From: a virus | IMG/VR virus record: IMGVR_UViG_3300034072_001301 | Span: 1 to 47,029 of that record | Length of the DNA stretch: 47,029 bases | Direction: 5' to 3' (one strand) | Shown here: positions 15,420 to 27,515 of the stretch, piece by piece | Layout of the letters: each line of letters opens with the position of its first letter | How positions within the stretch are numbered: the first letter of the stretch is position 1 | Made by a program: the position numbers and the translations under genes | Notes under the pieces: generated by a model | The model's input: only the letters and a program-made list of their open reading frames with translations | Told to the model about the DNA's origin: nothing | Databases searched by the model: none

Positions 15420-15428
15420 ATAAATATC
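15420..15428 (+). promoter_or_regulatory. Late-type promoter element ATAAATATC, plus strand
   Basis: Plus-strand ATAAATATC lies 30 bases before the ATG at 15459, with CGGGAGA as ribosome binding site. It is the only late-type signal seen for the PAS operon. Confidence 0.55.
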
Positions 15429-15458
15429 AAGCAAGTCGCGTATCGGGAGACTACCTTC

Positions 15459-15704
15459 ATGGGTGATATAATCAAAAGTGTAGTCGAGATGATCGCCAAA
15501 GGAGATGGAGGAGCATTAACGGCTCTCCTTCTAGGAATCATTGGTGTCTTGGGCTGGTATTGCTTTCGTCTAACTAAGCAATTGGAAAAAAAGGACGAGA
15601 AGATTTACAAGATCATTGACGATTACTCAAAAAATAACATCACTATCACAGAAGCCATGAACGGCTTAAAACTGGTTCTGATTGAGATCAAGGCAAAGCT
15701 CTAA
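15459..15704 (+). CDS. Single-pass membrane peptide with cytoplasmic coiled coil
   Basis: The 81-residue protein has an amphipathic start (MGDIIKSVVEMIAKGD), one hydrophobic segment (GALTALLLGIIGVLGWYCF, residues about 18-36), then a charged coiled coil beginning RLTKQLEKKDEKIYK. The positive residues after the segment predict that the C-terminal coil is cytoplasmic. It overlaps the PAS-protein start by one base, so the two are translationally coupled. It could be a membrane anchor or partner for the PAS protein. A holin-like or lysis-control role is also possible, but there is no diagnostic motif. Confidence 0.7.
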   Translation: MGDIIKSVVEMIAKGDGGALTALLLGIIGVLGWYCFRLTKQLEKKDEKIYKIIDDYSKNNITITEAMNGLKLVLIEIKAKL

Positions 15705-17374
15705 TGATGAAATGGCTGTTTGAAAGCAAAGAAGCTGCTGCCAAACGCGCATCACGTGCGGAGACCTTGAAAGTAGCACTGGAGTCAAGTGAAGCTCTTG
15801 AAAAAGCAGCCAAAGGAACGTTGGATCTGGCTGCTGATGTTACTGAGACTCTTCAAGCCAAAATTGACGACTATACGACCCAGATCGACCAAACCGCCAG
15901 GCTATTGAATGATGCCTTGATGCTGGTGAGCCCTGAAGGTGAAATACAAAGCTATAACCCAGCCGCTGAATCCATGTTTGGATGGAAGAAAAGAGAAGTA
16001 GTTGGCAAAAAGATCAGTATCCTTTTTCAGTTTCCTGAGGACCCTGTAATTGATGTAGACTTCATGGAATCGTTGGTAACGCAGGTAAACACTAATGATG
16101 AGTTTACCAGCGTGAACTATGAAGATTTCAAAGGTATCAGAAAAGACGGAAGCGTTATCTATATAGACGTTTCAGCAAGCAAGGTAGTTCGCAGCGACAA
16201 GAAAATTTACTATATCATGTTGGTCAGAGATGTCACACATCAGGTCAACAATAGTATTATGATACGTGAACTGGCTGAGCACAATCAAGAACTTATAACA
16301 ACAATTGATGCGTCCAGCACTGGGTTCATGATCCTTAACCCAGATGGATCCGATTTCAATATCAGTTTTGTTAATGAAGGTTTCGCCAAACTGGTTGGGT
16401 TCAAGAGATCAGCTATCAAGAAAATGAATCTACGTGATTTGTTTGGAACAGACTCCACCTTTTGGACTATTCGTAGAACCCTCATGGAAGGTGTAGAAGG
16501 CAGACACGAAATCCAATTCGACATTGGAGTTAGTCAAACTGCCGTATTTGAGGTTCACCTGACACCTGTGAAAAAAGCTTCTAAGCCAGTTCAATGGATT
16601 TTGGTATTCTATGACACAACCGAATTGAAGAAGGCATACCAAGCTCTTGGAAAAAGCCAAGCAACGTTCAAGGCATTTAGCGATGCTAGTTCTGAAAGCT
16701 TGATAATTCATGATCACACTAGACTGATGGAATGGAATGATAGAGTTATTCTCCTAACAGGATACTCTGACTCAGAGCTAGAAACCATGAATCCTTCTGA
16801 TTTGCTTCATCCTCTTGAAAGAGAAAGGATGCTATTCAAGCAACATGATATAGAGGATTCATCTTATGAGACTCTATTCCTTACCAAGACCGGTGAGGTA
16901 AAGGATGTTGCCATCAATAGCAAACCAATTGAGTGGGATAACACCGACGCCAGAATAGCCATTGTTCGAGATGTCACAGCGTTCAAGGATGTGGAAACTC
17001 AGTTGAAGACCTCTCGTGAAAGATATAAAACCGTAGTAGACAATACCATTGATCTCATTGTTTGTTTCAACAAAGACTTTGAAATCACCTTTTCGAACCA
17101 AACGTTTCGAGACTATTTTGATGTAGAGGTAGAAGACATAAACGGTTTCAGTCTACTAGAAATCATCCCTGAATCTGATCATAACAAGTTCATCAAATAC
17201 ATGCTGGAAGTTCTTCCGGGCCAGGAAATTCGTCGCGGTGTTCATCGTGTCAAAAGGCATGATGAAATCAGGTGGCAGGATTGGATTGATCGAGGCATCT
17301 TCGATGAAGATGGTAATTTGATTGAAGTCCAAAGTGTTATACGAGATATCACTCATCTCATACCCAGTCAATAA
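15704..17374 (+). CDS. Four-PAS-domain sensory protein without an output domain
   Basis: The 556-residue protein has an N-terminal helical region (residues 10-60) and four tandem PAS/PAC units at about 60-180, 190-310, 316-430 and 436-553. Landmarks are NPAAESMFGW, RKDGSVIYIDV and LVRDVTHQ in the first; NEGFAKLVGF in the second; LTGYSDSEL and IVRDVTAF in the third; and NQTFRDYFDV and VIRDITH in the fourth. It ends right after the last PAC, with no histidine kinase, GGDEF, EAL or HTH domain. PAS units bind ligands, haem or flavin, or partner proteins. A role as a cytoplasmic sensor tethered by the coupled membrane peptide is inferred. Confidence 0.85.
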   Translation: MMKWLFESKEAAAKRASRAETLKVALESSEALEKAAKGTLDLAADVTETLQAKIDDYTTQIDQTARLLNDALMLVSPEGEIQSYNPAAESMFGWKKREVVGKKISILFQFPEDPVIDVDFMESLVTQVNTNDEFTSVNYEDFKGIRKDGSVIYIDVSASKVVRSDKKIYYIMLVRDVTHQVNNSIMIRELAEHNQELITTIDASSTGFMILNPDGSDFNISFVNEGFAKLVGFKRSAIKKMNLRDLFGTDSTFWTIRRTLMEGVEGRHEIQFDIGVSQTAVFEVHLTPVKKASKPVQWILVFYDTTELKKAYQALGKSQATFKAFSDASSESLIIHDHTRLMEWNDRVILLTGYSDSELETMNPSDLLHPLERERMLFKQHDIEDSSYETLFLTKTGEVKDVAINSKPIEWDNTDARIAIVRDVTAFKDVETQLKTSRERYKTVVDNTIDLIVCFNKDFEITFSNQTFRDYFDVEVEDINGFSLLEIIPESDHNKFIKYMLEVLPGQEIRRGVHRVKRHDEIRWQDWIDRGIFDEDGNLIEVQSVIRDITHLIPSQ

Positions 17375-17425: not shown

Positions 17426-17521
17426 ATGGAAATCATCAAGCGCGGTATCTATACCATCATCATCGATCGAGATCATGAACGCCGGGTCATCGAAGCAATT
17501 CGTGCTCGCAAGTCTTCCTGA
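17426..17521 (+). CDS. Short ORF, 31 aa
   Basis: The ATG follows AAAGGAGATCATC, the best Shine-Dalgarno sequence in this region. The peptide runs MEIIKRGIYTIIIDRDHERR, then VIEAIRARKSS: a beta strand followed by a basic helix. A TGA stop is followed after seven bases by a strong GC-rich terminator. It sits 51 bases after the PAS gene, on the same strand. Start, stop and terminator spacing suggest a genuine expressed micro-protein, but homology cannot be judged. Confidence 0.6.
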   Translation: MEIIKRGIYTIIIDRDHERRVIEAIRARKSS

Positions 17522-17528
17522 TACAGAA

Positions 17529-17553
17529 AAGCCCCGGAGAAACTCCGGGGCTT
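17529..17553. terminator. Bidirectional intrinsic terminator
   Basis: GCCCCGGAG pairs with CTCCGGGGC across a three-base loop, with AAAA on one side and a TTCTTTG tract on the other. It separates the plus-strand PAS island from the convergent minus-strand gene. Confidence 0.85.
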
Positions 17554-27107: not shown

Positions 27108-27127
27108 CTAAATATCCAGTATTTATT
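27108..27127. promoter_or_regulatory. Divergent late-type motif pair
   Basis: Plus-strand CTAAATATC (27108-27116) and minus-strand AATAAATAC (27119-27127) are nearly adjacent and point at the plus-strand gene (start 27150) and the minus-strand structural gene (start 27074). Confidence 0.55.
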
Positions 27128-27149
27128 AGAGAGTGTAGGTTGTCCTAAA

Positions 27150-27515
27150 GTGTTACCCCAACTAGAAAATTTTCCATTTTTGACCTTGGGTCGCTACTTG
27201 GACCAAGAATATCTTGGTATAGTGGGAAACTCTGACAACCAGATAACCTCTATGTACGTTTACAACTCGCTACCTGACGAGGAGCATAAAAAGCTCTTTC
27301 TACAGCTTGGTGATGAATGGTGGTGGGAAACAAACCGTCAAATCCCAATCAATGTAACATTGAAAGAGAGATGGGCTGTCTTCCGTCCATATCTAAAGAC
27401 TTTTATCAGCAGCGACTTTGAAATAATCCATGGTCCGTGTGTGAGCTTGGATTCGGTCATGGTCAAACGAGTCAAGCGTAGGCAGATACAGCTGGTTCGA
27501 AAGCAGGATGATTAA
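27150..27515 (+). CDS. Conserved hypothetical phage protein, plus strand, 121 aa
   Basis: The start is GTG (MLPQLENFPFLTLGRYLDQE), 34 bases after a plus-strand late motif. The protein has many aromatics (LGDEWWWETNRQIPINVTLK, RWAVFRPYLKTF) and a basic end (VKRVKRRQIQLVRKQ). I recall a similar protein in T4-like cyanophages, of unknown function. Its stop overlaps the stop of the convergent gene by four bases (shared TTAA). Confidence 0.7.
   Translation: MLPQLENFPFLTLGRYLDQEYLGIVGNSDNQITSMYVYNSLPDEEHKKLFLQLGDEWWWETNRQIPINVTLKERWAVFRPYLKTFISSDFEIIHGPCVSLDSVMVKRVKRRQIQLVRKQDD

Follow-up and report, generated by a model that had tools for sequence, protein, structure and literature searches.

A conserved gene pair for a one-transmembrane peptide and a PAS-only protein in one jumbo-phage lineage: a possible membrane-tethered adaptor

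Introduction

PAS proteins are cellular sensors that usually carry an output domain, and PAS-bearing sensor kinases are abundant in rhizobia. NifL, an FAD-binding regulator with a kinase-like C-terminal region, acts on NifA by contact, and the heme-PAS sensors DosP and FixL combine a heme-ligating histidine with an EAL or kinase output. Among phages, a cytosolic sensor with a membrane partner is known from RexA/RexB of lambda, a system that acts in lysogens and in which RexB is polytopic. Small holins of the BhlA/UviB type are short one-TM proteins with a charged helical tail, and late transcription in T4 starts from the promoter motif TATAAATA. Viral PAS domains as such are already known, since other viral PAS proteins are present in BFVD. 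Our literature search found no paper on the proteins described below or on PAS proteins of jumbo phages, and PAS proteins are mentioned neither in the jumbo-phage papers likeliest to treat them nor in a comparative jumbo-phage survey.

Here, we analysed a two-gene locus within a 47,029-nt stretch of viral DNA (IMG/VR record IMGVR_UViG_3300034072_001301; hereafter, the window), which encodes a small membrane protein followed by a protein made of PAS units. With RexA/RexB it shares only a works-like analogy, that of a soluble sensor with a membrane protein, and no homology is claimed; the small protein has one TM segment where RexB is polytopic, and the pair is preceded by a late motif whereas Rex is active in lysogens.

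Results

A preliminary description of the window had proposed that a late motif, a one-TM protein with a predicted cytoplasmic coil and a 556-residue protein with four tandem PAS units, devoid of a kinase or other output domain, form a translationally coupled pair on the strand opposite to that of its neighbours. Each element of this layout was borne out by the analyses that follow (Table 1). The two ORFs lie on the plus strand amid minus-strand genes, and the stop codon of the small gene shares a single base with the start codon of the PAS gene, as expected of a coupled pair. In most relatives, GGAGAC or a similar sequence serves as the ribosome-binding site of the small gene.

Table 1. Features of the gene pair (positions in the window)
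Feature	Position	Strand	Basis or remark
TAAATA late-promoter-type motif	15421..15426	+	38 nt before small gene; two copies in all on the window's plus strand
GGGAGA ribosome-binding site, small gene	15445..15450	+	Read from sequence
Gene for 81-aa one-TM protein	15459..15704	+	ORF; family with 13 further contigs; omega 0.004-0.06
TM segment, residues about 17-37	15507..15569	+	Kyte-Doolittle peak, residues 18-36; AF2 helix 17-57
Predicted cytoplasmic helix-turn-helix, residues 38-81	15570..15701	+	12 of 15 invariant columns; AF2 helices
TAATG stop/start overlap	15702..15706	+	Genes overlap (1 or 4 nt) or lie 1 nt apart in 13 of 13 loci tabulated
Gene for 556-aa PAS-only protein	15704..17374	+	ORF, Pfam, NCBIfam, AF2
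N-terminal part, residues 1-66: hydrophobic/aromatic tip, basic stretch, long helix	15704..15901	+	AF2 helix 2-67, low pLDDT
PAS1	15902..16237	+	Sequence closest to DosP/FixL; without the heme His
PAS2	16298..16618	+	Sequence closest to LOV domains; Leu in place of Cys; Phosso and L043 lack this unit
PAS3	16658..16978	+	PAS profiles, AF2 fold
PAS4, most conserved unit	17021..17353	+	80% mean identity within group; AF2 fold

The hexamer TAAATA is rare on the plus strand, with only two copies in 47 kb, one of them just ahead of the small gene, and it precedes the small gene in every relative that we read. At the minus-strand gene starts of the window it is enriched: 7 of 45 have it 20-60 nt upstream, compared with 0.83 expected at random, and none of 5000 random trials reached the observed count. 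When the 8-base TATAAATA was searched with one mismatch allowed, there was no overall enrichment, the shorter TAAATA being enriched by position only. Upstream of the tail sheath gene of Agrobacterium phage Atu_ph07 stands GATAAATA. By analogy with T4, we regard TAAATA as the putative late-promoter motif in this lineage. Its other plus-strand copy lies 41 nt before a 121-aa plus-strand ORF (27150-27515; region 27109-27515), possibly a second opposite-strand late gene.

The small gene was found in 13 other contigs: ten from IMG/VR retrieved with the small protein, one retrieved with the PAS protein (L043), and the genomes of Sinorhizobium phage Phosso and Atu_ph07. In each of these, and likewise in the window, the PAS gene is the next gene downstream, and because the pair is thus conserved in 14 of 14 contigs, the two genes likely form a functional pair. 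Among the 13 loci whose junction was tabulated (the window included; L012, near-identical to L011, left out), the two genes overlap by 1 or 4 nt in ten and are separated by 1 nt in three. The small gene is present in a single copy in each of five large records, namely three IMG/VR contigs of 436-465 kb, Phosso (469 kb) and Atu_ph07 (490 kb). In the three IMG/VR jumbo contigs and in Atu_ph07, every match to the PAS model lies within this PAS gene; Phosso has no PAS-model match at that cut-off, though its gene carries a PAS annotation. Purifying selection is strong on both genes: in comparisons with unsaturated dS, omega ranges from 0.004 to 0.06 in the small gene and from 0.009 to 0.04 in the PAS gene. 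Mean identity within the group reaches 84% for the small protein and 69% for the PAS protein.

In the two isolates, gp48/gp49 of Atu_ph07 (AUZ94860, AUZ94861) and genes 453/452 of Phosso represent the same pair, with the same order, overlap, orientation against the neighbours and upstream motif, the identity in the PAS protein being 28% (Atu_ph07) and 38% (Phosso). AUZ94861 (L006, 11764-13374) is annotated as 'multi-sensor signal transduction histidine', a misleading name given that the Atu_ph07 genome contains no HisKA.

The small protein has a single hydrophobic stretch (residues 18-36; KD19 peak 1.93), which in the AF2 model runs on into the second of three helices (2-13, 17-57 and 63-80). 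Its most conserved part is the predicted cytoplasmic half and not the TM segment, with 12 of the 15 invariant columns located at residue 37 or later; this focus of constraint suggests that the cytoplasmic part forms a binding surface. A fold search with the small protein gave no match below E 0.5, and comparison with solved structures returned chance-level matches only. We found no relatives outside this jumbo-phage lineage, nor distant ones in T4, RaK2, phiM12 and SCTP-2, a set of four that holds no positive control. A bacterial source of the small protein was considered and set aside, as it matched nothing in genome_contigs and nothing among plasmids.

Membership of the 556-aa protein in the PAS superfamily is evident from profiles and fold alike. 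Pfam PAS_9 (4.8e-43) and TIGR00229 (2.2e-53) each match it over four stretches, and AF2 (mean pLDDT 73, pTM 0.32) models residues 2-67 as a helix, with four PAS folds behind it; the model, built from ten sequences with the Phosso row left out of the alignment, is usable for the domain folds and not for their mutual arrangement. Within the group, PAS4 has a mean identity of 80%, compared with 63-68% for the other parts of the protein. PAS2, present in the window, is absent from Phosso and L043, so that three-PAS forms exist. The protein stops six residues past the RDIT motif of PAS4, and neither Pfam nor NCBIfam identifies a kinase or other output domain in it; with neither HisKA nor HATPase, it is not a sensor histidine kinase. 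No HisKA domain was found in any of the five large genomes (436-490 kb).

The N-terminus of the PAS protein combines, in the twelve sequences compared, a conserved hydrophobic/aromatic tip with a net basic stretch (net charge of residues 1-24, +1 to +5), and, judging from these sequence properties, could hold the protein at the membrane. The best PDB matches in a fold search included DosP, PpsR, Brucella LOV-HK and the NifL-NifA complex. Of T4, RaK2, phiM12 and SCTP-2, all searched with the PAS protein, SCTP-2 gave a weak match only. For this protein, too, a bacterial source was rejected: genome_contigs yielded one distant match (20%), and plasmids yielded generic PAS proteins.

Discussion

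A protein that carries no kinase, in genomes that encode no HisKA, would naturally deliver its output by contact. The preliminary description had signalling proceed through protein contact at the membrane; we consider this probable from the absent output domain, and the binding of a partner is what we infer beyond it. The most likely reading of the locus, which we put forward tentatively, is that of a PAS adaptor tethered to the membrane, produced late in infection by one jumbo-phage lineage and acting by contact. By positive-inside reasoning, the small protein would be anchored in the inner membrane, its C-terminal helical hairpin facing the cytoplasm. Translational coupling would place the PAS protein next to it, and the PAS protein would lie on the membrane via its conserved hydrophobic/basic N-terminus and bind the hairpin, probably through the N-terminal helix. 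With no enzyme following PAS4, the array would act through protein contact, most likely by docking on a signalling protein of the host, or else on a partner from the phage, whose activity it would alter late in infection. We infer the membrane topology, complex formation, target and direction of effect in this model.

The adaptor reading draws on the adjacency of the genes, their single copy, purifying selection, the conserved cytoplasmic half of the small protein, the N-terminal tip, the four PAS folds, the absence of HisKA, the late motif and the fold matches, including that to NifL-NifA. Adjacency and shared fate, however, would suit any two-gene function, and no particular host partner is indicated, as the best-covering bacterial and archaeal plasmid PAS proteins are only about 21-25% identical to the phage protein. 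NifL (PDB 9qq6) resembles the PAS protein in its tandem PAS units and fold match, and itself works through contact with NifA, whereas contact with a partner is only proposed here; moreover, NifL has a kinase-like C-terminal part, and none is seen in the PAS protein. If the adaptor reading is true, a PAS-only array with its own membrane peptide would represent a phage-coded signalling module of a form for which we found no paper. The pair is retained throughout a divergent lineage of jumbo phages that includes isolates from Agrobacterium and Sinorhizobium, and the cultured phages Atu_ph07 and Phosso make it accessible to tests beyond metagenomes. An elaboration in which the TM peptide recruits the PAS-only array late into a kinase-less phage membrane complex, and metabolite sensing or takeover of a host PAS kinase sets when the cell is given up, appears to us unlikely.

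The strongest rival, although still improbable in our view, is that both proteins are carried in the virion, either as structural components or injected to act as the next infection starts. A TM peptide would be unusual in a tailed virion, and the pair, unlike the flanking genes, lies on the opposite strand with its own promoter motif. This motif also precedes genes for virion proteins, for example that for the Atu_ph07 tail sheath, which would fit a virion role. By CDS order, gp48/gp49 of Atu_ph07 fall within the cluster CDS 31-76, 29 products of which were found in virions by ESI-MS/MS (PMC6102473), a position that suits a virion role as well as it suits the adaptor; neither protein is named in the main text of that study.

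A specific form of the adaptor explanation, in which the PAS-only protein would heterodimerise with host kinases, such as cell-cycle or stress sensors, and block them, the TM peptide merely setting the location, strikes us as quite unlikely. It would account for a protein that consists of PAS units without output, and for the matches of the N-terminal coil and PAS1 to PdhS and FixL family models; such matches, however, are generic among PAS proteins, and the phage protein has no close bacterial relative. Two of the five large genomes also encode a single-domain response-regulator receiver, which would be in line with interference in host signalling of this kind, but it was not found in the other three, a distribution too limited for the partner of the pair. 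The receivers in question, of 113-119 aa (G002: L061, 1366-1707, minus strand; G003: L060, 1480-1839, minus strand), lie some 17-18 kb away from the gene pair, next to a conserved gene of 172-174 aa.

That the pair tunes lysis timing, as had been suggested, is a guess, and the corresponding reading, with the small protein as a holin or antiholin gated by the PAS protein according to cell state, is very unlikely. The small protein is like BhlA/UviB-type holins in having one TM segment and a helical tail, and the late motif would fit such a role; unlike them, it has no lysis neighbourhood. No member of the small-protein family matched any Pfam holin at E<=1. The holin family phrog_1350 did match 3 of 10 members weakly (best E 0.0049). 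We did not adopt an assignment as a holin by family, as the weak PHROG matches are shared with unrelated one-TM/coil families: phrog_1350 hits 13 of 14 control genomes and phrog_1009, likewise a weak match, all 14, so that these profiles mark TM/coil composition, and phrog_1350 was silent on the small gene in whole-genome scans. Conservation in the cytoplasmic hairpin and not in the TM segment also speaks against lysis control. No holin has been assigned in Atu_ph07, which leaves room for one, and its lysozymes are gp141 and gp699 (PMC6102473). By CDS count, these lie about 69 kb (gp141) and 44 kb (gp699) from the pair, and no endolysin or other lysis gene was identified among the window proteins scanned, so that the pair does not sit in a lysis-cassette neighbourhood.

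By sequence, the nearest solved relatives of PAS1 are DosP/FixL (7.8e-11) and those of PAS2 are bacterial LOV domains (2.1e-05); for PAS3 and PAS4, no solved structure gave a significant sequence match. Oxygen, light or redox sensing through a bound cofactor, which the preliminary description had raised together with the prediction of cofactors from pocket residues, is nonetheless extremely improbable, because PAS1 lacks a His at the position of the DosP heme ligand (RPAHPEYI of DosP aligns to DPVIDVDF) and PAS2 lacks the adduct-forming LOV Cys (NLRDLF, from residue 242 on, in place of DCRFLQ), leaving oxygen sensing by heme and blue-light sensing by LOV chemistry unsupported, and because two relatives have lost PAS2 altogether. 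These losses bear on heme and LOV chemistry; a redox signal or another small ligand may still be sensed.

Two further regions of the window deserve mention. The product of the minus-strand gene at 7416-9083 matches, over residues about 13-156, a domain common to minor head, DarB-like and very large phage proteins (matches include phrog_4660 and phrog_10089), the rest of the protein being unmatched. Directly after the PAS stop codon, the segment 17378-17553 contains a sigma70-like promoter (TTGACC, 16 nt, TATCTC, with TGC before TATCTC), a 31-aa ORF (17426-17521) with a good ribosome-binding site and then a strong terminator (17529-17553). Most relatives keep the TTGAC box, and the ORF found there differs by group (31-105 aa), which marks this site as a hypervariable gene slot.
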